Below the pieces are notes generated by a model, which was not told where the DNA came from, did no database searches, and saw only the letters and a list, made by a program, of their open reading frames with translations. From positions 73,906,742 through 73,970,741 of the forward strand of contig OX457026.1 in the NCBI GenBank assembly GCA_949752745.1: a stretch of DNA of 64,000 bases. Reading direction: 5' to 3'. The stretch comes from Protula sp. h YS-2021. Taxonomy: Eukaryota; Annelida; Polychaeta; Sabellida; Serpulidae. Within the stretch, counting starts at the first letter, position 1. Each line of letters begins with the position of its first letter. Positions 3,261 to 64,000 of the stretch are shown piece by piece. A program made the position numbers and the translations under genes.

Positions 3261-3479
3261 ACGAATTCAAAAGGCCAAAAGTAAAATTTATGCAGAATTA
3301 CTTGTATTATCGCTCGCTAGACAAAAAAATCTCGAGATCCAAAATTAGCTAAAGCTAAAGGCAGTACATACCAAATATAACTGTTTTCACAAACATATAT
3401 CAATTTTTGCTTAAATTCTCTTAAAATTACAATGCTACGACAAAGCTTAAAAGCTACCATGGTTCGAAAGTAAATCATC

Positions 3480-6959: not shown

Positions 6960-9950
6960 TTGCGAAGAACAAACGTTGTTTTAAAAACCTATACTGGAGA
7001 ATGTGTAAGGCCAGAGGGATACGTGAATGTTCTGGTGGAACGCAAATATAAGGGACAGCGTTTGCGGCTGTATATTCTTCACGAGGGAGGTCCACCTTTG
7101 TTCGGTAGAGACTGGCTCCGATACATCAAGTTTAACTGGCACGAAAGCCCATACGGATGACTCAAAGTAAGAAGAAATTAGACCATCTTCTCAAAAAGTA
7201 CAGTGAGTGTTTCGGCAAAGATTTAGATGAGCTGAAGGGAATAACTGCGAAGTTGCACCTTAAGGAAGGAGCTACCCCTAAATTTTGCAAACACAGACAG
7301 GTCCCATTTGCAATGGAGGACTAGGTCGACAGGGAATTGGACAACATGTTGAGTAAAGGAATCCTTTCACCTGTAGAATGGAATGAGTGGGCTGCACACA
7401 TTGTCCCAATTCTGAAGAAAGACGGTTCTGTGAGGATATGTGGCGGTTTTAAGGTCACTGTCAATCCAGAGCTCAACGTTGACTCGTACCCATTGCCTAC
7501 GACTGAGAGCATGTTAGCAACATCGGCAGGTGGAGAGGAATTTTCAAAGATAGACCTCAAAACGGCGTATCTTCAAATGGTAGTGAACGAGGAATCGAGA
7601 ACATACTGACTATCAACATCAAGAAAGGACTCTTTTTATCAACCGCCTGGCGTATGGTATTTCCCCAGCTGCATCCATCTGGCAACGCGCAATTGAACAA
7701 GTTTTAAAAGGTATCAAAAACGTGCAGTGTATTGTGGACGATATGATAATAACCGGTTCAGACGATGACGATCACCTATGTACCCTCGAGAAAGTCTTTC
7801 AGCGATTAATAGAATACGGCCTCAAAGTCAACCCCAACAAATGTGAATTTTTCAAAGGTTCTATTGAATTTTGTGCTCATATCGTCGACAAAAACGGAAT
7901 TCACAAGACCGATTAAAAAATCAAGGCAGTTACAGATGCGCCAGCTTAAAGGAATGTTTCTGAATTACGAAGCTGGGTCGCCCTGGTGAACTACTACCGC
8001 CGCTTCCTACCAAAACTGTCTACAATACTACATCCATTGCACCAGTTGCTCCACAAAAATCAGAAATGGCTATAGACAGACTCATCCGAAACGGCCTTCA
8101 AGAAAACGAAAGATCTCATCACATCTGATCTCGTTTTAGCTTATTATGATCCAAAATTGCCGCTTCGACTGCACTGTGACGCGTCATCAAAAGGTATTTC
8201 TGGTGTTATTTCACATAAGTACCCAGATGAAAGCGACCGCCTGATTAGTTTTGCATCCCGAACACTGTCAAAAGCTGAACAAAATTATTCTCAAATCGAT
8301 CGAGAGGCCCTCAGCATTGTTTGGAGCATCGAGAAATTCAATATGTACCTGTTTGTCCGAAAATTTACTCCGGTTACCGACTGCAAAGTTTTGGTTCTAT
8401 CTTCAATCCCAAGAAAGGCATTTCAACAACTACAGGTGTGCATATGCAGGGGTACGCCATTTTCCTTACTGGCTATAAATTATGAAATTAAATACAGAAA
8501 GACAAGTATACACGCCTGCGCTGACGGTTTAAGTAGACAACCCCTTCTGGTAAGCCAGAAAAAATTATCAGAAGAAAGAGCAATATTCTACGCTGCCCTA
8601 CTCGACAACTTCCGATTTCATTCAAGTAAAATGCCCAGGCAACATCAAAAGACCAGATATTATCACGAGTTTACAAGCTTACAAGAAGTGGCTGACCCGC
8701 AAAAGTTGAAGAAAATCTTTCCCTTATCATTCAGAATTATCCATTGCTGATTGGAAAGAGATTCCGGAAAAGTTCCACATATGGTGAAAATAAAAAATGT
8801 CTAGACCGTACATTTGGTGGCCCAATATCGACAGAGATATCGAAACGCAAGCAAAAATATGCCCAATTTGCCTAGAGATAAGCAAAACTCCAGCAAGAGC
8901 TACAGTTCACATCTGGAAATGGCCAAGTCATCCATGGAAAAGGATCCACATTGATTTTGCAGGACCTTTCCAAGGCCATATCTTCATCATAATAGTCGAC
9001 GCACACTCCAGATGGCCAGAGGTACGGATCATGGAAAAATCACTGCCCCGGAAACTGTTAAAGTACTTCAAGAACTGTTTAGCGCCTATGGAATTCGTGA
9101 TGTTATCTGTATAGGCAATGGTAACCACATTCTATTCAGAAGCGTTCCAGATATTTCTGAAACTCCATGGAATTATTCACAAAACTACGAGCCCTTTTAA
9201 ACCCACGTGAAACGGTTTAGCAGAGCGTACGGTTCAGAGTCTCAAATCTAGTCTCAAATCGATGAAACACGAACCTCGTTCCATGAACGAGAAAGGGGCC
9301 AAATTTCTACTGATGTATCGCTCAACTAAAATGCAACTACCAATGAGACCCCGGCATCGTTATTCATAGAATGTGAAATCAAAACAAGGCTGGATTTGGC
9401 AAAAGCCAATTTACGTGACATCGTTTACAGAAATGTTAACACCAAAGACGAATTTCAACGTCGTTCTTTTAGTATGGGTGATGAAGCGCTTGTGAGGGAC
9501 TATGGCCAAAGCACGAAAAATGGACATTTGCAGTTATTTCGCAAAAAATCGGAACGTTAATGGATGAAGGTTTGGTTGACAAGTCAATCTGGCGAAGACA
9601 CAAATCCGTCGTTCACAACACCCGGTTGAAGAAAAACCAATAAACAGCGATAATACCCCTCAACCATCAACCGTTTTACCCAAGCCCACTGAATCTAACC
9701 TGACAGTTGACCGTAAAGCTATTCCGTGTAGCATAGCGCCACCTACATCAGGTGAAACCACGACGTTAAAAGAGAAACCCGTTGTTTCTAGCCGAAAATC
9801 TGTACAGTTAAAATTTTAGGGCCTTCTGCCAATGTTTCACACACCGTTTCACCTGTTAAAGCAAAAACTGAAATTTCTAGTGTCGGTAGTCCCGTATCAC
9901 GATCAGGACGTTCTGTAAGATCGCCAAAAAAGTACGGTTTCGAGGACTAA
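6960..9950 (+). pseudogene. Gypsy pol pseudogene (protease, RT, RNase H, integrase)
   Basis: Blocks in order are as follows. The protease C-terminus is GGPPLFGRDWLRYIKFNW (about 7084-7137); the catalytic D-T/S-G is not found. Reverse transcriptase includes LSPVEWNEWAAHIVPILKKD (about 7364-7423) and the catalytic block CIVDDMIITGS (about 7724-7756). RNase H includes LHCDASSKGISGVIS (about 8167-8211). Integrase has the HHCC remnant CPICLEISKTPARA (about 8860-8900) and the core IDFAGPFQG, with the downstream DNG degraded to GNG. A basic C-terminal tail ends SPKKYGFED then TAA at 9948-9950. Numerous stops and frameshifts make it inactive. Confidence 0.85.
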
Positions 9951-25999: not shown

Positions 26000-26781
26000 T
26001 TATACGCTCACTGTGACATCATTTCCCTCCTCCGGTGTCGCATCATTTTTTTCCTCGTGGGCAACGAGTGCGTTAGTTTGGGGAGACTGGGGTACCCTAG
26101 TTTCCGGATCTGTGGCCACACCTTGTTTTGTAGTGTTATTCATCACACTGGGCTCATTATGCATTGTCTCAGCCGCTGGCTGAGGTGGGTTATCCACCGG
26201 CTGAGAGTTTGTGCAGAGTTCCAAAGGCGTAGTTTGATCCGAGTGGTGTGATGTCTTGTGCTCTGAGCTAGCGGTACTGTCAGCTGTACTGTACGTTACT
26301 CTAGGGTACTCCTCGTTGCCACTGTTCACATACGGGTCGGTGTTGGAGGGAGGCTGAGCGGCCACCACCTGGGTCGTGTACATGGTCTCCCCGGGCGCCT
26401 GCGGTATGGCCGCATACGTGACGCCGTCCGGATACGACACGAGCGGGTAGGTGTACGTATCGCTGTACGGCGGCGGTGCGCCACCCGCCATGTAGGGCTG
26501 GGCACCGGCAGCCGGATATGCATACTGATACATGGTGGCATTTGAAACAACGGGACCGGTTCCATTCTCATCCACGCGCTGCAAACCAGGGTCCAAAACT
26601 GCCTGCGCATGCGCGTTAACTGTTTGTGCATTTACGACCTGTGCAAGCATGGGCGGAGCTACCTGAGTAGTCACGTGACCGGGATTATCCAATGAAGTTT
26701 GTTCACTGCCAGGGGAGACAAGAGTGTACGAGGAGTAGGTGGAAGGGCTGGTTCGCCTATTTCGCGAACGGCTCACAGAAC
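26000..26781 (-). CDS. Exon 9b: alternative terminal exon encoding a 259-residue tail
   Basis: The acceptor ...GTGTCTTAG precedes 26781. The exon starts GT TCT GTG, so it needs an upstream exon ending in phase 1, exactly what every HLH exon provides. The frame then runs 259 codons to TAA at 26000-26002. The tail starts [18 protein letters not shown] and continues with a Pro/Tyr/Ala-rich stretch ([20 protein letters not shown]). It ends in a Ser/Thr/Glu-rich segment. No known domain is seen. Direct splicing from an HLH exon would replace the conserved post-b[21 protein letters not shown] segment. A weaker alternative is splicing from a cryptic donor at the end of exon 9a (C|GTAAAT), also in phase. 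Length, phase and composition argue for real coding sequence; use is untested. Confidence 0.65.
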
Positions 26782-29700
26782 CTAAGACACAGCAAATAAA
26801 ATATTTGCCTTCTCAAATCAGAACACTTTTTGCACTACGGTTTATTTTTTTAGCATCTATCAAAGATGATGCATATCCATTTGATTGTAAGCTTGTCTAT
26901 GATCTAAGTGGTCAGGTGCCTGAAAACAGTTCAAATTTAACAAAACACTTATTACTCATTATTCAAATTCCATTTGTTAAAGGAACTTTTGTTTATAGTT
27001 AATTGGTATATTTTCGACGAAATAAATAAAAGTACTTGTCCTACCTTCCCTCACAGGCATATGGGGTCCACGCAACTGTTAATAACAGTAAAAGAGCTAA
27101 CATTTAGTACACTAGCCTTGCTTATTCTTCAATTTGAAGAAAAAAGTCCACGATAACCAAACCAGGGGAAAACTGTCACCCAAAAAACAATCAGTGCAGC
27201 ACTGTGCGAACTGACACCATGGCGAGCGCACAAGCTCACTGGGTACCGTCACAAGCATTGGAGAGGATCAACAAAGACACGGTGGTAACTTGCAAGAACT
27301 GCTGAGGCGCCATCAAAGAATCTTTTCAACACAACAGGCGTTTTATAAAGTAACTAAAATCTGCTGAAAGAGGCATGCATTTTTGCATTCGTTATATGTA
27401 TCTGACTTCACTGCAAGTTTCCAATGCAACTATTGGACAAGGAAAACTCAAAGGCAAGAAAGTGCACTCTCTCTCTTTTTTATTTTATTTTTTTTTTATT
27501 TTAATCGCAGAAACACGTCCAAAATAAAATATAAGAAAGAAAAATCTCCTCACATTCTGGTATAAGTTACAAGAATTGGGTAGAGCAGAGCAGCCTTGTT
27601 TTGAAAATATGGTAAGCCAACACCGTACATAACAAACATTCAGAAGAATAATAACTATAAACCGTTTGCGAGAAAAAAAGGAACAATGTGGTTTTCCCGT
27701 CACATATCAAATATAGAGGAAAAGGTTGGAAAGAACAAACACAAGGTGTAAATGCGAAGTGCAACCCACTGCCTGAGGGAAGGTGAGAAAAAAAGTACAA
27801 GATATGTGAACATTAATGATTATACAAATATGCCATGTTATAAATTGCTGGTTGTTCTACGTATTTTAACAATACTGGTAATGTGTCAAGCAACGCATTG
27901 CTGACTTCCGGTAAAATGGACGTTTACTCAATTTTCAGTTTCAAGGTTTATTTTACACTCTTGTTCAGATTTTTTGTTCAAAAGTAACTTTTATAATGCA
28001 AATACAACTAAATTTCACCAGCAGGGGTGGCATTTCTCCATTGGCCCTGCTCACCGACAGACTTACTTTAATTTTTACGGCAGCAGTTTAATTTTTTTTA
28101 ATTTACTTCTATTGCTATTTGTACTTGTATTTTATTTACGACATGAGGTCGTATTTACCGAGTTTTGAGCAAGATCTGCAGCATTTGGTGTGTGGCCCAG
28201 ATGGTGGCCAGGTAGCTCTTCCGTCTTCTCCTCTTCTCGCCGTTTTAAGCACGCCGCTTTTGGATTTAAGTTTCTCTCTACAATTAACAGTGAATGAAAA
28301 GTTACTATATGGGGACTATCACTGCCACATACTGACTTCATACCATTTTCCCAGATCATTCTTACTTATTTTCTATCGACCAGACCCTTACACAGTTATA
28401 AGCAAGAGGCTAACGATATATTCCAGTTTCAGAGCTGTTGTATTTCACTTCCATGTGTAACAAAGACTGAATGTGCGCAAACAGCAAAATGCTTTTTTCA
28501 AGCCGTTTCTATATTATACATGAGCAAGAATCAAAGGCATTGTTTTTCGCTTCTTCGATTTTTTTTTCGCAGACTTTCTTTTTACTGAATGTAAAAATCA
28601 TGCCAAAAGAACGAAACAAGAAATCGAGGGATGAGTATTTTTATATCCATGCAAAAAATTTAATAAAGTATCAATCGAAAGAAGTGTAGTACGCGTTGAC
28701 ATGCTGACGGGGAGATTGGGACAAAATCTAGGAAACATCTAAACAGCATTAGTAAATTTTAAACAGTTTAATATTTCATCTGCTAACTTATTTTCAACAA
28801 AATTGTCGAAGAGAAATTAGTAAAAGATAGGATGTTTCCAAAAAAAAAGCCACTTACCTCGATTTCACAGGGTTATTGCATCGATACACATAAAAGTAGC
28901 TGCTGTAGCCACAAAACGCGTGGTGTCAACGCACCTTTAAAATGCATTGAAATATTCCACTCACCTCCTTCCGCCATCCTCTAACGTACACTGGTATGCG
29001 GCGTGACTAATTAACATTACAAATTTCCCATAAACTGAGCGAGTCACCTTTTCGTTTCCAAGACCTGCCTTTGACTTCAGTAACGTTTGCAAGCTCAATT
29101 TCCTTACATTTTCCCACCATCAGGCCAAGCCCATTCTCTCCTCTCCCACTTCATGTTGTCTCCCCCACCCTGTCCCCTGAATCTCTACAACACTTCCTCA
29201 CCTGTCCCCTCCACAAAGTGATTGCTTCCGGTTTCGATTGCATCTTCCAAAATGGCGTCCTATCACGCCAGCGACCTACCTCTGACTCGTGTTTCCAGGT
29301 CAGTAATGACCTGGACCGCCTGTTGTAGCACGGTGAGCTTGGTTTGTGCCCGGTCACTACCCGCATGCATGGACACCATACGCCCTAGCTCCTTAAACGC
29401 TTCGTTGATATCTCGCACACGTATTCTGAATAATGCAAACCCGCTTTATATTATAGGCACAAGCAATTGGTTTAGTAATGGCGAGGCATGTTAGGCTGAA
29501 AGATGAGGCTGTTGTGAGCAATGACTAGAATGTAGTCGAGTTCATACGAGGTTACGACTGGCACTTCCGGCCTCAACGCCACACCTGCAAAATGGTCGTA
29601 GCGACCAAACAGAAAGCTTCGCCACAAACTGTGCATGTATTAGTTGCCTGTAGTTGGACAGTTCAAGGCCTTTGATCCGATCGTGTGCGAAATATCAACA

Positions 29701-32700
29701 GAGGCTTTTTAAGGGGGGGGGGTTACCTTTGGCATCACCATGACAAGTTGGAAAGGACGCGCGTATGACGTACGGTCGCGTCGACATCAGTGGTTCTTCG
29801 TTTACTTAAACACCAAAACGACGTCATCCACCATTTGTGAAGCACCCGCCACATAGCTCTTTTATTTTAAATACATCGCTGTTTCTTATCACTCTTTCCG
29901 CCCCTGCATTCACATGTTTTGAGGTTCAAGGGTAAAACGCATGCATGTAAGAGCTGACACATACATTATGTACGGTTTGCACACACCTCTGATCTGTGAC
30001 TCTAGGTCGGTGATGACTTGGACGGCCTGCTGTAGTATGGTCAGTTTAGTCTGGGGCTTGTCATTGCCCATGTGTAGGGTGCACATACGCCCCAGCTCCT
30101 GTATTGCCTCATTGATATCTCGCACACGAACTCTAGAGGGACAGGCAGAGAAATATCCAACAAACCAAAATAAAAAAAAACATAACATTCAGAGCTCAAG
30201 TCCACACTGGTATATAGGTAACGTACACATACCAGCAACAGTTGTCTAGAACAGAAGATTTCGCATATCACATGCACATTTCATGCGTGTTTACTCTCCG
30301 CGCTGCGTGCGCTTTTCCTGGCGCATGCGCAGTGTAGAGGTCGTGTGTGAGGCATCAGCAAGGGTAGCGCACTTGCTCTCTTTTTTTTCGGTCCCAAGAG
30401 TGATGACGTCACTTTTCCCGAAAAGTGATGACGTCATACCTACCAGCTTTGCTTACCTGTAGTCTCGTTACCGAGCGTACAATTTTGATGCAAGAAAATA
30501 CCGGTACGTGTGTACTACTCGAAAAAGGTTTCCATTGCAAATGCGCTTCAAAGGACCGCATAGGAAATACATACCCCTGACTTGGCTCTCTAACTCCGTG
30601 ATGACACTAACGGCCTGCTGGAGAATAGTGAGCTTGGTTTGGGGCTTGTCATTGCACATGTGCAACGTGCACATACGGCCCAATTCCTTAAAAGCCTCGT
30701 TGATGTCTCGCACACGAACTCTACACAGGCGAAAAGGCGGCAAAGAGTCAAACACTGTGGGCTCTATAACGACTATTCGGCCTCCTTTCAATTGTTAGTC
30801 GAGTGAACTTTCAAATTGTACCAGTTAAGAGACATTTGCAACATTCGCGACAGCACACTAAGCTTAAAAATACCAAAACCATTAAAACATTGATGTTTAA
30901 TCAGAAAAATATCAGACTTGAATCAGACTTCAAAGGATCCTCCAGCGCGACTGTTTTTTCATTTCATTCATCTTGTTTTACTTTATATTTTTATTTTTAA
31001 TCACCACAAATGTCGCAAATGTTCCAGCACAATTGTATTTTTTCCTGGCTCCTAAAAGTGCAATATTCCTGCACAAAAGACCCTCTAACTGGCACAGGAC
31101 GTTGAGCGCTAAATGAATAACGGACATTTTATTCGGTCGCTTGCAGAAAAAACTATACTCCTTGTACAGCGTGACTGAAAGAAAAAAATCAAGATATTTA
31201 AAAGAATCAAACAACAACATGCAAACAAAAACATATGTTTGTAAATGGAATACGTACAGCTTTGCATGCAGAGAAAGCTCAACGCGAGCATGCATACAGC
31301 TACCTTAATAATAAAACGAGTTATTTGGTGATAAAATGGGGAGCTAAAATAAAGGGGTAGGCAAAACTACGAAGGTAGAGGAATACACTTCTGGAATCAG
31401 TCCTTGGTCCGCGGACTTCTTTTTTACCTCGGACTTGTTGTTCTAACTGAGTAATAACGCCTACGGCTTGCTGGAGGATCATGAGCTTGGTCATTGGCTG
31501 GCCATTGCCAGTATGCAAGGAGAGCATGTGCCCTAGTTCTTTGAACGCTTCGTTTATATCTCGTACGCGTAGTCTACACAATAGTTAAATAAAAGATATC
31601 AGAGAGATACATATACAGATATACAAGAGCGACGATCACGCGACCAAAGACAAAGTGTGCAACAGAAAGGCGTTGTGCACAACTAACAGAACCAACGGAC
31701 ACAGAACTTAACGACATCGAGTTTAACTGAAATAGTAACACTTCTCATGTCTTATCTGGTGAAAAATCATACATCATTTGAAGAAAACTTGTGCTAAAAA
31801 GGTATTGTTATTTAACACAGTGTTTTTTTTTTATTTAATCCACCTTTACCATATTTTCCAACGATATTTTGTTGACACATGAAATCTTTCACTGATTTAT
31901 TTTTTATGCGACATAACAGAAGCACTGTTTTTTCTCTTTTAATTGCAAGGTTTTCATAATCAACTGTTACCAGTAAATACACCACAACACCGAAAAGACA
32001 ATGATAATTTTTCAAAGACAATTCCCAAAGACAGCAGAGACGTAGCTATCGCAATATCTTCGCCACATTACAAGCACTCCTCCACTTCCGACCCTTTCCT
32101 TCCTCTGCACACAACAGTTGCTACAGATGTTCACCCCTTTTCTCACAAGACGTTACGCCAAAAAAAAAAACGTTTAAATTTTATAGATAATATTTTTTTT
32201 TGAATAAAGACCAAACTTGAAACAATGGTTATGTGCTATAAAACTAACCATAAAATAAATAAAATTTATAAAAATTTCAGGACGTTTTGGTCTTGTCATG
32301 AATCCCACGATTTCAGGAACGCTACAGCCTATGGGATCCTGAATTTAAACTTCATTCAATAAAATTTTTAAGCCACTATTGTGAGCATAAGTCTGAACAT
32401 CTGCAGCAAACTTCGGAGAGCTGCATTCCTTGGAATGTTTACCAAAACAATTTTTCTCGGATGAAATTCACAACCACAACCTAACCCCGCAAAACACAGC
32501 CACCATTTTCAAAACACCATGTATTGATGACTTAATTGTGTAGCGCGTGCAGCAATGCCGAGTCAAAAGAGAAAGTACCTTGCTTCCATTTCGAAATAAA
32601 AAAGAATATTGTTTCAAAAGTATACTGGTAATAAAAGGCTTGGCCTTCAAATTAAAATCTGCAGAAATACTTTATTAAAAATTTAGACATATCTGGAGCA

Positions 32701-35700
32701 ATGAAGCTTTTCTCTTTCGGTGTTGCTACACACAAGAAAACACTGCATCACTGACTGACATGAAAAGGGTTACCGGACACTTGCAATCACCTGTGTTAGG
32801 AACTGTGAAGGGCAATAATCAGCACATTGTGTGAACAAAATGGGCCAACGCAGTGTGCTCGTCATCCCACCTCCCTCCCAACAAAAAAAAAACAACAACA
32901 ACTTTCTTCATAAAAATTTCAAGCTGCGTATTTCAAAAGTTTGTAGATCAATCGTTATTTCAAGGACGAAGTCATGTTTCCGTTTTTATCTCTTCTTTTT
33001 ATGTTATCATTTTTGTTTGTGCTAAGCAGTCTGTATATGATTTTTCCCATTGATTTAGCACATATTATCGACGCATACTGAATTTCTGGCCAAGAAAACC
33101 TGCATAAAACACGGATATGAACACACGACAAGGAGAAGGCAACAATCGCAGAGATACAGTCTGCCCATGTTATTTTCCATTCCTTCAACGTTTTTAAATG
33201 ACAAAGACACCAGTTGAACCCCAATAACACACAAAGGTGAGTGAGAAGAAGGGAAAAACACCTATGGACAGTAAATGGCACACCACTGCGCAAAGTTCTG
33301 ACCTTTCCCTGGTGTTATTAGCATGACGCCGGACTTTCTCGCGCTCTTTTTTTTCCTCCGCCGTTTCATTGGGATTAGACTCCTCACCCGCGTCCCCATC
33401 CACCGAGGACTGGCCTGTTGAAAGTCTGCAAATGCAAAATGGCAGCTTGGAATTCGAAGCAATACGGGGCCTACCTTTCGCGAGCGTTATTGGCTTGCCG
33501 CCGCACTTTTTCGCGCTCCGCCTTCGCCTCGGGCTCCTCGTTGTCATGTGATTCGTCCGTGACGTCACTTTTGGCATCTTGTGAGCCGACCGACGACCTG
33601 GAAGAGCCGCACAACACGCAGTCACGTGACACGTGTCTCCCAGAGCAAGTCTACGCCGTTAGACTAGCTGCCTAAGCTGAAACCTAGGCTTTCAAACCGA
33701 GCTACCTAAGTCTTCACAAAGAATACCTAGGCTGCCAGGCAGAGGTACTTACGATGTCACGTGATCTAACAGAGCTGGGCTTCACAATGCGAGGTCCCCA
33801 AAGGCTGAGACCGGTGAGTTCGGTTATTACGTACATCTCTTTTCAATAACATTTTTATGAGTATATCTTCTAACTTACGTTTCTAATTCCACAAATAAAA
33901 CAGTACATGATCCTTTTAAACGTCATCATTTTCCTTAAGATGTTAATTAATCACGAGAACAATTCTTTATAAACGAATGCTACAGGGAAAAATTTTCCAA
34001 CAGTTAAAATTCAAAAGTTCACTTGACTATTTATACAGTTTACTGTCATCCAGTACGAGGTAAGAAAATTTTGAAGAAAAAATGTACATGTAACCAAGAA
34101 CTGACATTCATCCATCCGCAAAAGGACGTTTAAAAATACCACTCGGTCTGTCAAATTTCATACAGTGCTGAAAAAAAGAAGAAACAGACGAGTAAAAAAT
34201 ACCTGGATTTTTTGGCAGGAGGTTGGGAGGAGACGGATGCTCCTGACGGGATTTCAGGCTTGTACGTTTCTGACGTCGACGACTCCGCTCCATCTTTGTC
34301 TTTTTCCACCTTAATGTTGCGCTGCTCTGATCGCATCACATCTTTGCTCAGTAAACCCGGTCTGTTCTCATCTCCTATTTGTGTGTGGCTACTTGAACCC
34401 TGAAATGCACAGCGAAGCAAGAAATATGTTCATTTTGATACAGCTTTTAATGATAACCCACACGAAAAACTGAAATAACAAGGATTGTTTCCGCGCTCAC
34501 TCGCGTCGGTTTGTTTATGACAATCACTTACATAATACCGAGAGGAAACCTTCTGGTAGGAAGCGAACTTCCTTCTGACCTTCTGACCTCTTCAATTGTC
34601 TGGATACAATTCGCAATAGACATATTTACATGGAGTTAACATTCATCCTCATTTCCCTTAAAAAGGTTATGATGCTTTTAAACATTCGTTTCAGGGCGCT
34701 GATTTAAACAAGTTCGGTCCACTAGTTCAGACTCTGACCCAAACGATGTGATACTTGATTTGGGAAATAAATTCTAACAAAAAATTCGGAATGTATGTTT
34801 CCCAGTTTCTATAAAAAGATTTCGAAAACAGCCAAAAGGAAGAGAAAGTGAAAAAAATCAACCCGGAGTGCACAGAAGGCAAGACAATACAATGAATATC
34901 AGATGAAAATCCCTTAATTGGTAAGAAAATCACTGCCAAGTAAGTACCAGGACGCACCATGTACCGCAATGTTTTCAAGTTGTCAGAAGTATGTAGCTCT
35001 AATTTGCCGTAATTTGTTGGCATGTGGCTGATTGGAAAGTATCTAAGTTCACTTCGAAACACAAACATGCTAATTTACAAAAGAGCTCTGTACACAAACA
35101 GCCTCTTTTTTGTGCATTGTTGAATCGAAGAAGAAAAGGAACCGGTGTTTGAAAAGAAAACAGCCCAAGAAACCGTTCTTTTGTTTTAAATTAAATCCTC
35201 AAACACAGACAAAACCAAGAGGTCATCAGCTACAATATATACTGGATCCAATTTTCATTCCCAATACATTTGTTCCAGGCGCTTGCAGATTCCTGGGTAA
35301 CGCACAAAAAACAAATAAGAATGCAAAACATAAAACCCAAAACACGCGCTTAACGGTTCAGGTCGAGTTATCGATATACCACAGGGAGAGAATACAAGAA
35401 GGAATTTTAAGTAAGCGAAATTTTAAAAATAACGTACGTCACAGTTTTGTACACTACCTTGCAATACTCTCAAAACAAAACAGAAATTTCGGGTCATATC
35501 TTACAAGTTCACTTTTACTATTTTTTAAACTATTTTTTGCTGAAGCGCCACCCCCCCCCCCCCCAAAAAAAAACACTGGATAAACTTTTCACTGCGAGCA
35601 CATAGGAGGTTCACGATTTCTGCAGCAATTGCACGTCTACTTTTCTTTTCTTTTTTTTCTTTTTGACCTAAGACATTTGAATGAAATACCCACTAATCGT

Positions 35701-38700
35701 GAATCACACTGCAGTGGAGCCGTAAATGCGATCGCAACTGAAAGACCAGCAAGCTATATAACCCAAAAAACACGTGATTACTCCGTAAATCCATAGAGTG
35801 GCTATCAAACCGTCCCGCCGCATGGCAGCCTGACGAGACAGAAGGGCAGAGGTTGCGGCACATGAATGACATATCAAACACGGTGTTGTGTCCACAGGCG
35901 TGGCCACAAGAAGCCTCTACACACCCTTTATCCTGACACTTCATCAAAAACTTGTTTTGTTTTGTTTTCAAGTTGTAATTGAGGTCCCCGACAGAGAGAT
36001 CTAAATAGAATTAAATCACCCACCGCCAATATTACTGGGCAAAAGAGGAAAGAAAACAAAGACTGCAGCTATTTGTGGCATCGACTTGTTGACGTAAACA
36101 ACGAAGTGATGCACAGAAAGATCCAAATACAATGGCTAACCGAAACGATAGAAATCTCTCAATTACGACTGAGAAAACGTGCGCCCGAGAAAAAAAGCCA
36201 AGCCAACTTTCGGCACTACCATCTTCATGATACATCGACGCATTAAGCAAGGAAGCCCGCGGTGAAAATATTACGGCGATTAGTCTTCATAGCGCCCGGG
36301 ACGAGTTGGGGAGTGTCAGAGCATGGCATCACACATCGCAAGGCGTACGGCATCGCTACGCTTCACCTCTCCTCTGAATGCCTACAACCGCTAAAACGCC
36401 CACGAATATTCCTCCCTCATACACAACCCTACGTCATTGTTTTCTTAGCCACTCAAGAAGATGGGGAAATAAGACCAGGTTCACAAGACTGAAGACGTCA
36501 TTTTTCACGGTGTGATTCGAATTTCTACAACTTCGTTTGCTGCTCCGTCGGTTACAACAGCTAAGATCTCGTGTAACACATCACTTACAGCTATTCACTG
36601 CCAATCATTTACGAATCCCGCAAATACTTGCCTTGCGTCTAATCCCAAGACACCGATTCAGTTTCAGACACAGATTAAGACTCACACTGGACACAGAGCA
36701 AGAGGCAACCGCTGTGCAACAACCAATGTTTACTTGAATTTCCAATGTTATAATCCCCATTACATTTTTCAATCTCAAGTTACCCCTGGCTGATTGGTTC
36801 ATACTGATTGATCATTTACATCAGAAATAAAGGCTGCTCATCCAGTTGTTGACGAAGGGTGACCACACCTACCTGGCTAACCGCCTCTGCCGTTTTCGCA
36901 TACTGTGGGAACTGGACTGTACCGTTTGCCTGACCGTATGCCGGCACAGCCGCGGCATTATTGTATCCATTCTGCATGGCAGGCTGGTTCTGATCCAGAT
37001 AGAACGGGTATCCATGGTACCAGTCATACCACAACGACTGCGAGTAGTTATTGTCGCAGAAATAATTGCCTTTATTCCACTGTTCCATGATGTGTGCACA
37101 GTACAACTGTCCGCGTACAACTAACACGGTGTACTGGCTAGGTATCCGCCTTTATCCTTACAGTCTTTATAATTGACACATACAAACAACACGGTATCTC
37201 AAACTCTCTTACCGGTTTTCCCCCCTTTATTATTGCCACATTTTGGCAGCCTTGCTATAGCGAAAAGAAAGAATACTAGATCTTAAGATGGCATATGTTT
37301 TTGCTTTGTGGTTTCAATTTGGGAGCCTGCTAAGTTGAGAATTGTCACTGACCCAAGTCAACAATACCGTAGCTGCCGGGAGATTGCCATTGGCTGGAGC
37401 TCGCTGTTTACAGCTGTTCCCATCCATTGTTATACATCACGGCAAGAATTTACAGTCTCCACTTGGCGATTGTGTGCAAAGCAGTTTAATGTTGCGTATG
37501 CATTTACCAGACATCCTTGCTATGTTTTTGCGGAAGCCAGATTCAACGGCCAGACAGAGTTCACACAAGATGTCCAAGACAATGATAACTTTTGAAAGTA
37601 ACCAACTTTTGAAAGAGGCAATATCTTAAACACTTTTTTTCTAATATCGAAGGAAACACTTTATAATAGAAGCAAACAGATTCGATTTTCCCTAACTTAA
37701 GAGGAAATACCAATTTCCTTTAAGGAACGCGCATTCTTACGTCAAACCTGTCATCCAGTTTTGCTATGTTAATTACGTTTTGGCTGCTATGGCAACACCC
37801 ATGTGGCTGGCATTAGCACAACTTCAAGGAGCGCTGGGAAGATCTCCACTGTTTATTTACATGCGTCCGCAACAACACACCCTGATTGGCTTTCCCAACG
37901 GCTTCAATTTCACGTAGTTTATGTGGGAAGGCAAACAATAAACGAAGAGAAAGTGAGCGGGTGGGGTGGGGGGTGGGGGGGGGGGGGGTTCGTGCGGTGT
38001 GGTAGAACCACTTCCCGGTCCCTTTACACCAGACGCGCCAATCCGATGACATACAACCTCATTCCGACGGCTCATCAGCGAAAACCAGCTGCCTAATTAA
38101 GTGATTAAGCTTATCCCCCCTACCCATCTAAAAATACGCTTACTGTGGATATTACCAACAAAAACATCTGGCAATACTCAAAACTGTGGGATTTGCTGAG
38201 CAGAATTAAAAGAGCACAAAGTCAGGCAGCCATGCCTTGGAATTCTGCGAGATTTCAATCAAGAGATAGCTCGGTACAACGCTTTCATCTTTTTATTCAA
38301 TTAGGCAATATCTGTCTGCTCTTGTTGCGATCGCATCACTTTATGTTTTCACCGTCTTGTGGTAGCATCGTATAGTACTTTCATTTCAGCAGCTTGCCTG
38401 AGAGAAGGCGGTAAAGGGAATGAGGCAACACGAGCAGGACCGGACACAAGTTCATATATATCAATCATTTACGTCCCTTCATTTTTGCAAAGAACCTAAA
38501 TGTATACTTGAAGCTTCACCGTAATTTTAATACACTCGTACACGTTTTTTTTAACTTTCAGAGGAAACAAGTACTAAACCACAAAGAAGTGCCCTAAATG
38601 CGGAATAACGTGAATCTCAAGATTTCTGGTACCCCGACTCGTGCCCAATCGGCTCAGATAAAACACATGACACTACAGTTAATATAAGGATCTTTTAAAC

Positions 38701-41700
38701 AAGGCAACTGTCGTGAAAATTATCTGAGTTTTCAGAACTTTTCAAGTAATGTCAGTTCAACCTGTCAAAAATCGCCAAAACAATAAAATAACATCGGTCG
38801 TTACATAATTGAGATGCAGCTTTCAAGAAGCCAGTCTCACGTTGGGAGGAATCAACGTCAAAATTTACTCATATGTAGCATTTGTTTACATGTAGCAAGT
38901 GTCTATGGTTAGTGGATTTCTATTGCAGGCAATTAAAGGGCAAAAATAACCTCTGCACAAGTTGTTGTGGCCTTGTATTTAAATAATACAGACATGAAAT
39001 GTAAGGTAATCGCGCTTTCTAAGTGAGTATATCAAAATATTGAACACAGATTGTGCATATATCACGTTCAGCCTTAGGTGTAAATACAGGCATAATTCTT
39101 TTAAGTGGTACGGCTAGGTATACAGCAGAAACAGCTATTTACACAGAACCCCCCGCCAGTAAAAACATGGGTCGCATAACTCACGTAAACCAGCAACATG
39201 TGTGGTTTTTAAACCTCCACACCCAAGGCTTAAACTACTCAATCCGCTGTTTGAAATCACAACAGAGTGAGATGGGGGAATATTTCCCTGTCCATAAGGC
39301 ACGCTCAGAGATGACTTACGCTGTGTCACTCAGCCGTGGGCTAAATCCGCACAATCCTAATGTGACCTCGGCATAGGCGCAGAGGCTAGACCCGACGAAG
39401 GCGATATACTAGACATGCGCGGTTAAGAACAACGTCCTCATGGAATGCGCGGTGACCGCCCTGTGCATTTTTAAGAAGGCGTACAACAGCAGTTCAAAAA
39501 CAAGATGAGATTTTGTTTGTTTGCGGTTGTCTCCTACACGATAATTGTTTTCTGATTATGTATTACGGCAGAACCAGTATTTAAAGGAAAACTTGAGCTG
39601 CTGATGCTAAATAAGGTTTTATTTTTGAGCTCACCACATAAAGCAAGGAACTTAGTTTCTGACAGACCACCTGCGAATTGGTAACAACTTCAAAGTAAAG
39701 AAACGTAGAAAACTTCAGCCCAGAAAAGGTTAAAGTACTACAGGAGCTGTGCCAGCAAACAGTTCTGCTCGCGATGACCAGAGTTTAAGAAAATATGAAG
39801 TTCCCTTTAAATAGCAGAGCGACTTCCTAATATTTAAACTCATGAAAGGCTAGGCGACATTGAACTCAATACAACTACACACACAACGTTCAAAGTCCTT
39901 AAATCTCTGAACTTGTGCTTCCGCTCTTTAGTTTTTTTTTCCCATTTTCTTCTTTCTTTTTAAATTTCAAAGTTAAATTTGAATAGTTGTTTCCTCAAGT
40001 TAAAAGGGAATTCACTTGCTGTTACAATAAAGTACTAATCAATCAGTGCAAATGCGAGATTCTAAATGGATTTTAAAGAAAGTTAGCCTGTGCGTGCAGA
40101 TTTATTTTTAAATCACACTTCTGTTCGTGCACTTACCATATGTGGATGCTCTAAGACGTTCACTACAGGCAACTGCATGCCCATGGGGGCGGGATAGCCG
40201 GCGCCCTGGGCGTTGGGCGGCATGAGGCCCGTGGAATGTGGTAAGTGGTGCATGGGTGCGGGAACCTGCCCACCGGCTGCCATGCCGCCCGCCTCCCCAG
40301 CGTGCGTCCGTAAAACATGGATCGCGTCTTCTATTCTCTCCTCCATTTTACTTTGCTGAAACAAAAAATTGCAGTCAACATTTGCAAAAGATTTCTTTTC
40401 AGGAGAAAATTTTGAAATACGAACAGCACACGTCCTTATTAGGCACCATCAGTTGACTTTCTTATTAAAACCAATTACGTGCGATACGTCTTTTTAAGAC
40501 GATTTCAATCTTTGTCAGGAATTTAGAAAACTGAAAAACAATCAGCCAATATTTATTTTGCTCACACTTTGATAGGTCTTCACTTAAAACTGATTTTCTT
40601 AGTTGTAAACTAAACTACCGTGGGTTTCACGAATCAAATTCAGTTAGCCACCATCCCTCTTACCCACTTATTTGCCCCAAAATTTAATTGGTTAATTTAA
40701 TACATCAGCAATTTGTTATAAAGCACACAGACCAAAACCAGGAAAGCTGGACAGAATCGCACCACGAGATTTTGACACAAAGATAAAATTTAGTTAGTGT
40801 GTTTTTTTACCGACAATAAATATTAATTCTGACAAATCATAACATGTTGACATCAAGGTCAACATTCTCGTAATTGGTCAATATTATCTTCATACTGAAT
40901 CGAAATAAGTCAATATCTGCTTTGTTACACAGCTTAAACAGCTCTTTGGTTACAAAATATCTGTAGTATCTATCGACATTTGCATTCCGGTCAACATTGT
41001 AAAAATATTGACTGGGGAATCAGATTACACAATTTGCGCATGTCATGTAACAATACTTCCTGTTCACTTCAATATCATTATGTGCTAAGTATTTAATATG
41101 TTTTTTTTTTATTCATCGAACACAAGTGAAAGCAGTTTCTTCTCTAATCCCTGCTGGCTCCTATTTTTTTCTACTGGCGTTACTTTCTCACCAGATATCT
41201 GATTACATTTTGTATAATTTGGATATTTGTAACAGGACACAACGACAACGACGACTGATGTCAATTTAAAAAGTCCCTTCTCCCGAACACAAAGCCGTGA
41301 TTTGAAAGGAAATAAAGGGTACGTAAAGCGAGAAATTTGCCGTTTATTTTGCTTATCAATTTGTTGTTGCTCAACGGTTTACTTTTAATACCTCTATGTG
41401 TTTGTGTAATATATCTGTGGTTCGGTCCAAGACTTTTTCCATACAGCCCTGTTGTTGCATAACAGTTACTCATTCAACCATTTATTATTATTTTTCATTT
41501 CTTTCAATTTTTTATTATTTCCATACTAAAACTTTGATTACACAACTTAATAGATGTACTCTGAGTGTTTTGCAGATCTACTTAAGGTTACAATGGAGGC
41601 TATGAAATCCAGACGGCATTAGGATTTTTTTAAGATTTCAGAAAAAGACATTTTTCCAAAATGTGTTCATTTCAGAGCCGGGTTCAGAAAGATGAAGTGT

Positions 41701-44700
41701 TATATCAACTAGGCTACAGAGTTGTTAGTTATGATCCCCTGGTTCACAATCTATCTACACCGCAATCAGCCTTTTTTTTTTTTTTGTTATCTATTTACAC
41801 GTTACCTTTGGGTATCGCCCCTAAAAGACAAACAAGATATGTTCCATCAAGTTCAGTTCTTAAATGACGTGTTGTTGTACAACAAAGCGATGAAGTTTTA
41901 CCACACACAAAAGTGTCCGAACCACCAAACATATCTAAAATTTCCATATAGAAATGCTGGAGGACTCATAGAAGATTGAGATTAAGATTCGAGTATAATA
42001 TTTGCTACAGATCGCCTCTGCACCAGGTTAAGGACTCACCAAGGACACGAGATGACTTTGGAACTGAGACGAGGTAGAGCTGCCCGTATTCGGCCATTGA
42101 CTCGTGCCTACGCAACAGAACATAAAACAATGAGAATAATGGCATAAAGTATGCTATCACTTTTTTTAAAAAGAAAGTCAGATTATTATTGCCTTTTCTG
42201 ATCTCCAACCCCCCCCACCCCACCCACCTACAAGTTTGTAATCTCGACACCTTTGATTTCAATAGTGCTAAATCAGGCAGCGTCCAAAAATATATAAACC
42301 AGGGAACTGCCACAGGGTACTTCAGAAGTGGAAAGGTCTGTGAGGTCATCAGGAGAGAAGCCCCGTGGGACGGTGAAATGAAGGCTGAAATAATAACAAC
42401 ATGACGTGCGGGACTGTGAAATCAACATCAACAGATCTATTGCAGAGTTGTCACATCCCCTCGTCCACTCCCCTCCCCCCACGCCCCCCCCCCCCCCCCC
42501 CGCTGCCCTTCACCCAATCTTATGTTTACATTATAAAAGATCCTTTACTTATGTGCAATCAAGAAAACAACGTATGCTTCCAGTTAATTAGACAAGTAAG
42601 GCAAGTTGCTGTTTGGATTAGCAGCCGGTATGGCACGGGGCCGGTGGGTGAGGCTAATTCTGATATAACCCCCGGTCACTACATAAACTAATTACGCCTT
42701 TATGCCAATCATTTGTCGCCGCGAACATTTTCAAGCAGGTCTTTAGACGTCACAATACAAACCAATCACATCAACCATTATCGGCATTTTAAAATACTCC
42801 GAGATGAAAAAAATCACCACATTTCCATTTGAGACCTCTTGTTGTTCGCGCGCGCACCAAACGGCAAAATTTGAAATCCGCTCAACACTACCTGATATGG
42901 GTGGTGACGATGAAACTGGGGTGGAGGGATTTGAGCCATAACTGCCGGTACTACTTCCGGGACCGCCGTGTTCAGGTGTTGGATAAATCTGTAACGAGAC
43001 AAATAAGACACACTTCTAATCAATAAGTCTACATTTCTTTGGCAAATAACTACACGGAAGCCAGTTTACAAAAACAAATAACAATAATAAAAAACAAAAA
43101 CCAGCAGATAAATAAATAATCCATGATATACAAAAAATCAAATTTTGAAGAAGAAGTGAAGTGGCGTTGGGTATTATTCAAACGGTAAATCATTGGTTTC
43201 ATTAAGTAAACGGCAACTATATGGTTTTTCACTTACCCAATAGTTATAGGGATACGGTGTTGAGTAACAAGGATAGAAATGATTAATTGTATCGTTTTGA
43301 CCATACATTTTATCCGATACAAACAGCCTTCCTTTTTCCCGAAAAAAAAAAACACTTCGGGCCACAACACTTCTCTAGCGAAAGAAGTTTTTTATTTTAT
43401 CCTTAATTTAGCTCAAGAGGAATCTTTTCTTTGATTGCGACTAAATTGCCTTCTATTTCTCCTTGAAATCCAGTATGCCACATTTTATTTAGGCATGTTT
43501 ATGGGCTTTTCAACCTGGATGTCCATGTTTCACTGGATAAAATATTTTGTCGGTATCTACGCAAACAATACAGTTTAGCAGCAAAAACCCATTGCTATTA
43601 ATTACTGTGGACGAAAAGAGAACCGAAGGTGCAAACACTGGTGAGGAGAAAAAAGTAAAGGTGAAGAAGAATCGGTGTACAGGTGAAAATGTACACTTGT
43701 TGCGAGAGAACCGACGCTCAAAGCTTGGCGGGTCTTGTGCCAGTCCTTAACGTTACAGTATGCTCTACGTCATAGAAATATTCAGCTCTGTGCAACAAAA
43801 AGATCATCACGACTTCCCACTGCTGCTTAACGTATTTATTTTCCTCTCTCCCCTTGTTCATAACACCTGTTGCAGGTATGTTCCATATAAATACATAGTG
43901 ATATGTAAACGCAAAGCGAACTTATCCTTTCACCAGTAGCACTGTGCTGGCTGATTTAAATCTTGAACTCGTGCATTGAGTCACAGACATGGCTCTTTCC
44001 TCACAGCGTTAAATAAATAGCCGTAAAACCAGAATCTTGAGCTCTCTTTAAATTTGATAGGACTATAAGATTTTGACGATTTAATCTCTACGCTAAGGTT
44101 AAATGTTCGGAGAAAAGTTACAGCTGCAACATGTATTGCCTGGTTTGATATTTCAATGGGTTGTGAGTGCACCACTTAATTTCGTTTTTTTCCCTCTTTT
44201 CAACTGATGGCAATTTTATCAACAAAATAATAGATTTTCTCATCTAAACTTCTTTGTTATTTTCTAATAGTGAAATCTGATCAAAGTACAACGTTTGGTC
44301 TTTGTACCGGGAGAAGGTAGTAAGGTTCACCAAACTGGGAGTTTTCAGCAGAAAAATTCAAAATCTACACATCTCGCCGTAAATTCTTGATCTGTAACTG
44401 GATAGAGAGAGTTTCAACATGCTCCTGTGCCATCCATTGCCAGATCTATTCCACGACCCACAAAACATGTAATCATTATATTAAAGGAAAGCATCCGAAT
44501 AAAATGACGGGTCACAGAATATTGAATTTAATTGCTCATCAGTTTAGCGATCCATAACGTTTTCTAAAACTCATTTACCAAAGCACACATCCATCTTCAT
44601 TTCATAAGAACTTACTTGAACTCCCGTTTTTACTTCACTCAATTTCCGCCTACATTTTTTTCATGCTTTGATTTTTCACATTTTCCTGTGTATATTATTA

Positions 44701-47700: not shown

Positions 47701-50480
47701 TCCGCTTCTTTCAGTTCCCGACTTCAAGTTCTCCCGCATAAATTTTCAAGGTACTCCGGCATTGGTTAATCGACCATAGTGGTTGAGTATTTCAGCTTCG
47801 GAAGTCCAAGGGTCGCAATTCTTAATGCGACTTNNNNNNNNNNNNNNNNNNNNNNNNNNNNNNNNNNNNNNNNNNNNNNNNNNNNNNNNNNNNNNNNNNN
47901 NNNNNNNNNNNNNNNNNNNNNNNNNNNNNNNNNNNNNNNNNNNNNNNNNNNNNNNNNNNNNNNNNNNNNNNNNNNNNNNNNNNNNNNNNNNNNNNNNNNN
48001 NNNNNNNNNNNNNNNNNNNNNNNNNNNNNNNNNAAAGAAAACCGGATATCCGATGGGGCTGCGAAACGACCGGAGTACTGCAGACAGTAAGACCGGGTGG
48101 ATTGTGAGAAGTCGTACTTACCTGTGTACGAGGGGTACTCGGGTACATGCCGGGTACTGCCGGTTTCGGTGAAGAATACTGTGATGGATCGCGATTGAAT
48201 TCGTCGGGACTTGGCGAATACACCTGCGAACAGAAGCGTCACATCAGTATCATTCTGTGTACTGGTCTTCGTGGAATTTCAAGACGGAAGATACATAAAG
48301 AACACTATGCATGGATCGAAACTTTCTGTGCATTGTATTACTTGCTAAATAATGAAATAACTTCCAGGTGCGCTTCGCTAATTTCACGGGGCAGATTATC
48401 GAAACTGATCTACCACATTAAAAGTTACTGATACACTGTGTCGTAAAAGTCACATTTCTACACCTGACTTCTTTGGTGTATTCATAACACGGACTTGTGA
48501 GTCAGAATCAGTACACCAATCACGCACAAGTTTTATTTTCAAGCATCCGAACACGATTAAATACCGAATACTGGAATAGAACTCAGAGTATACTAAATAG
48601 ACTAAAAGTAATAACTACCACTAATACTAATATTATTAAATATTCCACGTGATCTTTGCCCCATACGTCATTAATGCGCATTTTCATTCTGTAATATTTC
48701 CATCAATGATTCTTACATAGACTGAGTAATAGGGTTATGCCTACCACGTACACTCGGGATCTGAAATTTCTCAAACGTTAAATTCTCATTTACTAACATG
48801 CGACCCACTTCAAAAATATTCAAACTGATGTTGCTTGAACCCGCTAACCAGATATGATTCCAAGTCATTTTAACCAGTCAGATATTGAGTGAGAATGGAT
48901 GGTGCTTCCAACTAGCCAGGGGTTGCCAGCGGGTATGAAGCTGAAATATTCGGCTCATAATGAACGGCGCTTTGATGAGCTTTCCCGTCACTATTACTAC
49001 ACTGTTCTATTCATCACCTTTAAGTAAAGTTGAATTTTTTCCTACGCTATCTCCGAGGCCACTATGTATCTTTCCTTGAAAACACTCTTTTTCAAGTCAA
49101 CAAGTTCCAAGTAGTATTCTTGAGCCAAGATAAATAGATGACGTTTGAAAGTTTTTTTCTTTACTTTTTCTTCCTTTAAAATTTTTATTCGTTCTTCAGT
49201 ATAACTGTATCCGTCGGGATAAAAGCCGTGAAGTCGCGAGCCTCTTATGGAGTGGCTAGACGAATGACTGACAACCAACTCTGTTAAATTCGTGTCCATA
49301 TATATATACATGTTTTAGCCCTTGAAAAATGTTAAAAAAGTACTTACCCCGCCTAATTTTCTAGCCTGTAGGTAATAAAGAGGCGACACGTAAGGATACG
49401 TACAGAACATCCCGACCACGTAATCAGCACTAGTAGTATAAAGTTCGTTTAAACACTCAGTCCTTTAAGACATACGCAGAGGGGGAACAGTAAGGTAGGA
49501 AAAGTTTTCACACTACTTAATCTTTCATTTTGTCATATCCATTGTAGAATATAACTGCCGTAGAAATTCTGTTTTTTTAATTTTAACATTCTTCCCAATG
49601 CCACATTCTTCTGCTGGAGTTATCCACTGGGGGGTAAGAGGTTCAAGGACATATCTGACATAGCACATTACTTAATCCACTCTTATCAATGGTAAAATTT
49701 ATGTCCACATTTCCACTAAGCAGCCTTTGCGATGAGGACAGCATGTCGTGAGAAACAGGCACAGCAGCTTCGCCGACCTCTATACAGTTCTTATCAGTTT
49801 ATCCTGAAGCATTTCAGCCTTTAGGCACCACAGTACACGCCTTTCATATATTACGTTCCTCCACAAAAAAGTATCCAATAATTTTAATGATGAAGTGCTG
49901 TTCAGTTGTACGGCAGAGTAGACCTTATCGAGCGAGCCTATCTCTACAATAACAACGTGCTGCAGTTATTAGCTATCTTTTTACAAATGAATCTTCGTGC
50001 AGATCATTCCTCCACTATCTGTTTAGATTAGGAATAAATCCCACAACATGGATTCCCTTGGTCAACATGGCATCGGCGGGATCACATGCACAGATCCAGA
50101 CCACGCCTACACGTCGTAACTGCACTGAGCTGCCCATCAAATGACCACAATTTTTCACCCTTTGAGGCTGATCATTGTAACGCCGAATTTGATTGGTCCA
50201 TAACCAGAATGAGGCGACAGCAACACATCAACACGTTTGACGTTTAAAATGTACTCAAAGCTCCTGCCGGCACAATACTCTCAAGTACACTGGCCTCAAA
50301 TGTTACTCCGAGTATTGATTTTAAAAGCAAGGATCTTACTGTTGTTGTTTCCACACCGCGAATGCCCTGTTACTTGGCACGACTGAGTAACTTCAAACTG
50401 CCAATTTAGTGACGTTCTTGTCTCAGCTTCTACGTAACCTACGTCTATTGCCTGATGACGACAGGGTCCAGTATATATAT

Positions 50481-60768: not shown

Positions 60769-64000
<3,232 letters not shown>

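Follow-up and report, generated by a model that had tools for sequence, protein, structure and literature searches.

The window analyzed here is a 64,000-nucleotide (nt) stretch of the genome of the serpulid annelid Protula sp. h YS-2021 (contig OX457026.1, positions 73,906,742 to 73,970,741). Its sequence marks a minus-strand gene as encoding an E protein, that is, a class I basic helix-loop-helix (bHLH) transcription factor of the daughterless/TCF3-4-12 type. E proteins are the common partner of most tissue-specific bHLH factors. We find that this gene, which spans more than 22 kb and for which the exons found are an incomplete set, carries two tandem exons for the basic region and four tandem exons for the helix-loop-helix (HLH). 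Very probably, one exon of each set is spliced into a transcript. The exons that make up these two sets, and the C-terminal exon that follows them, are:

33475..33597, minus strand: basic-region exon 7a, 123 nt, phase 2-2 (placed by borders and phase)
33426..33474, minus strand: intron 7a-7b, 49 nt, predicted to be too short for removal by splicing
33303..33425, minus strand: basic-region exon 7b, 123 nt, phase 2-2 (borders and phase)
31428..31573, minus strand: HLH exon 8a, QP[LM]TK[LV]M class, without the helix-1 Cys (borders and clade)
30575..30720, minus strand: HLH exon 8b, helix-1 Cys present (borders and structure matches)
29987..30132, minus strand: HLH exon 8c, helix-1 Cys present (borders and phase)
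29280..29425, minus strand: HLH exon 8d, without the helix-1 Cys (borders and phase)
28132..28277, minus strand: C-terminal exon 9a, ending in a stop, with AATAAA from 28136 (borders)

The original prediction had already placed the gene among the E proteins, and both domain and structure matches bear this out. The joined piece 7a-8b-9a matches TCF3 among solved structures with an E value of 7e-30, and TCF3 or TCF4 chains, including a Max-E47 chimera, make up the top 8 of its 10 structure matches. Four of the eight possible products were scanned (7a-8a, 7b-8b, 7a-8c, and 7a-8d), and all four pass the Pfam HLH cut-off of 20.7 bits, with scores of 41.7-50.3 bits. Furthermore, the C-terminal stretch after helix 2 in exon 9a, a trait of E proteins, has identical letters in relatives.

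Exons 8a-8d, named in transcript order, are each exactly 146 nt long, with 48 codons flanked by a single base on each side. They had been described as four 146-bp exons with GT/AG sites that enter at phase 2, leave at phase 1, and contain no stop. The exon-border check confirmed this description: AG precedes and GT follows every copy, the phases match, and no copy has an internal stop. Taken singly, the four exons score 31.2-33.9 bits against PF00010 (same cut-off). A repeat analysis independently recovered the identical four copies as a single repeat family, and a tblastn search of the window with the four exons, looking for a fifth or decayed HLH copy, returned only these four at E < 0.4. 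A profile scan of the genome (863 Mb, 218 contigs) gave at least 52 HLH matches and placed all four copies at this single locus. Over the 48 codons, 35 (8a), 42 (8c), and 34 (8d) residues are identical to 8b. With the common leading Arg counted, the figures become 36, 43, and 35 of 49, in agreement with the earlier hand count of 35-43. Across all pairs of 8a-8d, 32-42 of 48 residues and 93-113 of 146 nucleotides are identical (33-53 bases differ).

All eight joins of the form 7x-8x-9a produce a single open frame. In contrast, the frame is lost for the adjacent pairs 8a+8b, 8b+8c, and 8c+8d, for the triples 8a-8c and 8b-8d, and when all four exons are skipped, so the earlier claim that two copies or none would shift the frame holds; non-adjacent pairs are covered by length arithmetic, without translation. 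When 8a, 8b, 8c, and 8d are all joined, the frame is regained at the end, but internal stops are present. Like 7a and 7b, the four are homologous neighbors that match in length and phase, as is the rule for mutually exclusive exons. We infer that exactly one of 8a-8d enters each mature transcript.

The original prediction spoke of a single exon 7 before the array. This exon is in fact a pair of alternative basic-region exons, 7a and 7b. The two members lie 49 nt apart, share 21 of 40 residues, and differ in their basic segments (ANNARER in 7a and ANNTRER in 7b). The frame gives no guard against using both, 123 being divisible by three. A limit of about 50 nt between donor and branch point has been proposed for vertebrates (PMC7969005). 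The entire 7a-7b intron, at 49 nt, falls under this limit, a vertebrate threshold that may not hold for this species, and it contains no YTNAY. This intron would be expected to prevent joint use of 7a and 7b.

The 8a class and the age of the copies

Three protein searches (E <= 1e-8) gave 6083, 4586, and 641 matches. The best 120 of each by score were combined into a set of 296 proteins, a selection from which absence from a group cannot be deduced. The 8a-type motif QP[LM]TK[LV]M is present in 20 of these 296 proteins; the class reads QPLTKLM where other HLHs have KPQTKL. It occurs in annelids (Lamellibrachia, Ridgeia, and Dimorphilus), a nemertean (Tubulanus), molluscs (Magallana, with two 8a-type HLHs in one model, Mytilus, Solemya, two species of Haliotis, Nucella, and Babylonia), flatworms (Taenia, Schistosoma rodhaini, Macrostomum, and Cichlidogyrus), and five further proteins. 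In 4 of the 20 (Lamellibrachia, Taenia, Macrostomum, and Cichlidogyrus), both motifs stand in a single gene model, which would follow if a gene predictor strung alternative exons together. Three 8a-class records are compact: P0134 has a coding sequence of 2091 nt in contigs of at most 2392 nt, P0133 one of 2058 nt in 3028 nt, and P0127 one of 1929 nt in contigs of at most 3398 nt. Judged by size, these are likely spliced cDNA, although their sources are not labeled as such.

We built a tree of 60 HLH segments over 48 columns, comprising the four window exons and 56 segments from 46 hand-picked proteins. Exon 8a and 15 other motif-bearing rows fall on one side of a branch with support 100/98, and removing columns 25-31, which hold the defining motif, leaves support at 99/99. 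Exon 8b pairs with 8c (98/76), and 8d pairs with one database protein on a long branch (94/82); with 48 columns, the tree does not settle the root or the order of 8b, 8c, and 8d, and the bootstrap had not converged. The 15 further rows of the 8a class and the 41 rows outside it have no residue in common at positions 15, 24, 25, 27, and 31. The changes are R/K to Q/H/S/E at 15, D/E to S/G/T at 24, K/R to Q at 25, Q/V to L at 27 (M in 8a itself), and a change to M at 31. Position 17 has few residues in common, mostly changing from C to V/I in the 8a class (L in 8a itself). Exon 8a has lost the charges R15, D24, and K25; an alignment with E47 suggests that these positions span the stretch from where helix 1 ends, through the loop, to where helix 2 starts. 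On this comparison of sequences, the 8a HLH class is common to annelids, a nemertean, molluscs, and flatworms, and the array is not merely a local oddity.

Selection on the copies was assessed by the Nei-Gojobori method. In all six pairs among 8a-8d, pS is 0.61-0.92 and pN 0.09-0.20, with dN at 0.10-0.23 and synonymous sites near saturation. Each pair differs at 22-31 third codon positions and 2-9 second positions. For 7a/7b, pS is 0.84 and pN 0.34. The introns flanking 8a-8d share only 10-26 of 60 bases on either side and are no longer alignable. The intron flanks have thus diverged while the exons were retained, indicating that the duplications are old and that the exons alone were held. In neutral simulations starting from 8b, an identity of at least 33 of 48 residues survived in 68% of the runs with K 0.15 and in 1% of those with K 0.3, but in none of 5000 runs at K 0.5 and K 0.8. 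By these measures, 8a-8d are old duplicates under selection; 8b and 8c, which pair in the tree, look like a younger duplicate.

Such conservation makes it unlikely that use is confined to one or two copies (8b and perhaps 8c), with the rest being decaying duplicates that have stayed open by chance. Exons 8b and 8c are indeed nearest the canonical class, and 8d has no clear orthologue among the matches listed. However, near-saturated synonymous sites with few replacements are found in all six pairs, splice sites and phases are intact in all four exons, and the 8a-type HLH occurs in cDNA-sized contigs of relatives from several phyla. Less probable still is that the extra exons serve as a brake, with double joins yielding frame-shifted, decay-prone RNA that sets the E-protein level, and diversity being secondary. 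The three pairs and two triples found to break the frame would fit such a role. A poison exon needs no protein conservation, yet replacements are few, and the 8a class is set apart from the 41 other rows at all five positions given above. In addition, the stop produced by 8a+8b lies too close to the last junction for decay to be certain. The splicing of one basic and one HLH exon per transcript remains our preferred reading.

Comparison with other animals and other exon arrays

Two or more HLHs were recognized by pattern in 38 of the 296 models. Among these, 28 hold two basic segments (27 vertebrate models and one beetle, P0009), eight hold one (Lamellibrachia, Taenia, Homarus, Darwinula, Macrostomum, Magallana, Amphibalanus, and Cyprideis), and two have no basic segment by pattern. 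A further 38 models combine a single HLH with two basic segments (37 from insects plus the bivalve Solemya); the insect models include many isoforms of the same species, and about half of the two-basic set, or fewer, was inspected by eye. As read from these models, vertebrates double the basic region and HLH as a unit, whereas other animals double the two kinds of segment separately from each other.

Two observations on individual models can be added. P0087, P0039, P0042, P0050, P0088, and P0101 (insect and Solemya) have two basic segments with Val versus Ala before RE, like NNT/NNA here. P0098, a contig of 4658 bases, contains two different HLH segments, one with an unusual loop (HTGASSSTFTKL); this is perhaps another tandem HLH array.

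The nearest known case is TCF3/E2A, in which exons 18a and 18b are mutually exclusive and the resulting E12 and E47 differ in dimer properties (PMC12324280, a preprint; PMC12585103). As there, exon choice is predicted here to swap the dimerization part of an E protein. Unlike TCF3, where there are two exons and each carries basic region and HLH, the basic (7a/7b) and HLH (8a-8d) exons are separate sets. We consider it very improbable, slightly more so than a brake, that the locus amounts to ordinary E12/E47-type splicing with nothing beyond vertebrate E2A. The family and the place in the protein are the same, and mutually exclusive exons are known there, but the 27 vertebrate double models repeat basic region and HLH together, while here the sets are split and there are four HLHs. 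The known kind is thus vertebrate E12/E47; what is new here is that the basic and HLH choices are separate and that the HLH choice is four-way. The original prediction cited the two-exon E12/E47 precedent. Its remark that fly daughterless is not known for such an arrangement undersells the arthropods, since doubled HLH or basic segments are present in crustacean and insect models.

Vertebrate COE/EBF genes also have a tandemly duplicated exon for part of the HLH motif, whose inclusion became mandatory in vertebrates (PMC2394523). Unlike the gene described here, that family is an atypical HLH with mandatory inclusion and no four-member array. A doubled basic region is shared with insect daughterless models, in which NNV or NNA stands before RE. 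However, in 37 of those models a single product combines two basic segments with one HLH, and beetle P0009 holds two of each.

Dscam contains mutually exclusive exon arrays, and a Dscam-style exon choice had been proposed for this gene. The likeness lies in having more than two homologous alternative exons that agree in phase, with a single one predicted to enter the product, and the guarding of the frame is evident from the sequence. Unlike Dscam, the array encodes a transcription-factor domain and has four members, and pairing of docking and selector RNA is a weak lead only. In open-access literature, judged by titles and abstract openings, we found no report of an E-protein array with more than two members, nor of any lophotrochozoan E protein with alternative HLH exons. 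That the copies are an assembly artefact or collapsed paralogues is hardly credible despite a 200-base run of N in the window, as that run lies 16 kb away, the copies differ at 33-53 of 146 bases within unrelated introns, the genome-wide scan places these four together, and double-HLH models exist in other species.

Candidate splicing signals and further exons

Candidate signals for the choice among 8a-8d are found in the surrounding introns:

31218..31294, minus strand: three putative Rbfox-type UGCAUG sites, starting 134, 158, and 205 nt downstream of 8a
30271..30276, minus strand: putative UGCAUG site, 144 nt upstream of 8c
29940..29945, minus strand: putative UGCAUG site, 42 nt downstream of 8c
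29140..29179, minus strand: G-rich 40-mer, 101 nt downstream of 8d, with predicted pairing (a lead only)

UGCAUG occurs 5 times in the 1710 nt of array introns, compared with a Markov mean of 0.79, and 1 of 2000 simulations was as high. The entire array holds six, one of them within exon 8d. Only 4 of 1236 array-sized windows (either strand) reach six, and all of these overlap the array. In human GFPT1, Rbfox acting via UGCAUG in the following intron raises inclusion of exon 9 (PMC10514471). G-runs are also present 71-115 nt after 8d; the human TCF3 18a/18b choice depends on PTBP1 and on hnRNPH1, which acts at a G-rich stretch of exon 18b (PMC12585103, PMC12324280). Motifs for PTB, Nova, CELF, STAR, and hnRNP H were counted as well.

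Predicted pairing partners of the G-rich 40-mer after 8d are tracts that immediately precede 8b and 8c or lie in intron 8c-8d. In a docking test, intron 8d-9a beat 12 of 12 shuffles on both scores, and then 40 of 40 and 24 of 24 more. Intron 7b-8a exceeded all 12 shuffles on the summed score, but 7 of 12 were better on the worst-of-three score. Purine-rich and polypyrimidine tracts would pair anyway, the shuffles ignore local composition, and the introns and window were chosen by us. Docking and selector pairing within the array is at present a weak lead.

Other exons of the gene, found or proposed, are:

48122..48223, minus strand: upstream E-protein exon (exon-border analysis)
42892..42988, minus strand: upstream E-protein exon, beginning YPTPEHGG (exon-border analysis)
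40137..40355, minus strand: upstream E-protein exon (exon-border analysis)
36873..37088, minus strand: candidate alternative first coding exon, with an ATG start and a phase-0 end fitting exon 6 (open stretch and donor)
34203..34399, minus strand: exon 6, ending in phase 2 (exon-border analysis)
26000..26781, minus strand: candidate alternative C-terminal exon 9b, phase-compatible (phase)

Exon 9b would give a long alternative C terminus rich in Tyr, Pro, and Thr; a scan of 161 of its residues matched no Pfam family. The ATG stretch at 36873-37088, in which no Pfam family was found either, may be an alternative first exon, from which a short E protein lacking the upstream region would arise. 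The combinatorial potential is predicted to be two basic by four HLH by two candidate C-terminal exons. An N-terminal region of the DKELSDLLDF type, present in the relatives P0034 and P0040, was not seen by eye in minus-strand open stretches of at least 45 amino acids; the gene may start beyond position 64,000. The conserved upstream exon at 48122-48223 is present. The 200-base run of N (47834-48033) lies within the gene, between that exon and the next one found.

Elsewhere in the window, open frames on the plus strand at 3425-5243 and 8076-8750 resemble, by eye, retroelement reverse-transcriptase and RNase H parts. The plus strand of a long trinucleotide repeat at about 62700-63010 reads as poly-Asn/Thr and its minus strand as poly-Val/Leu/Cys. 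In the wider genome, three HLH matches of equal score follow one another at intervals of about 6.2 kb close to the beginning of contig C2 (G000:C2:70938-71054, 77139-77255, and 83336-83452), a pattern suggestive of a tandemly repeated bHLH gene.

Proposed choice of the dimerization interface

In the mechanism that we propose, 7a and 7b would exclude each other, with the 49-nt intron leaving no room for joint use of donor and branch point. Exons 8a-8d would be held to one copy by regulated choice together with the frame guard; regulated choice is needed because the frame alone cannot pick a copy. The Rbfox-type UGCAUG sites would likely favor 8a, and perhaps 8c. The basic exon might tune DNA contact (ANNARER versus ANNTRER) and the HLH exon might tune partner choice. 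In E2A, a disulphide at helix-1 Cys570 is reported to stabilize homodimers (PMC7328008, citing Benezra 1994). The helix-1 Cys is kept in 8b and 8c, while 8a has Leu and 8d has Val. Thus, 8b and 8c could favor stable homodimers, and 8a and 8d could shift the pool to heterodimers with tissue bHLH partners.

Several points weigh against the splicing of exactly one basic and one HLH exon, or against parts of this mechanism. Exclusive use of 8a-8d is argued from frame logic, and steric exclusion among them is ruled out, their introns (707, 442, and 561 nt) being too long. The 8a+8b product joined to 9a stops about 15 nt before the last junction, so its decay is not assured. Exon 8d has a best identity of 79% among the matches listed. 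Joint inclusion of 7a and 7b stays in frame, and this, together with the 37 insect models that have two basic segments and one HLH, suggests that double inclusion may be real somewhere. UGCAUG ranks second among hexamers occurring at least four times, below the overlapping GCAUGC, and the sites upstream of 8c and within 8d do not fit a simple rule. Moreover, the motif and pairing tests were picked after viewing the sequence, and the dimer effects suggested for the HLH exons draw on alignment.

A broader reading is possible but is held much more tentatively, and we lean slightly away from it. Lophotrochozoans may have inherited an ancient spliced choice of dimerization interface, which this animal widened to four interfaces by two DNA-contact regions. 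If this reading is true, the splicing of a single hub gene would rewire the entire proneural/myogenic bHLH network, in contrast to vertebrates, which express different E-protein genes. There are three such genes in humans and one, daughterless, in the fly (PMC4736037). A conserved HLH exon class, a four-member array, and a choice of basic region would together offer a direct test of whether splicing of a hub sets partner choice in development.

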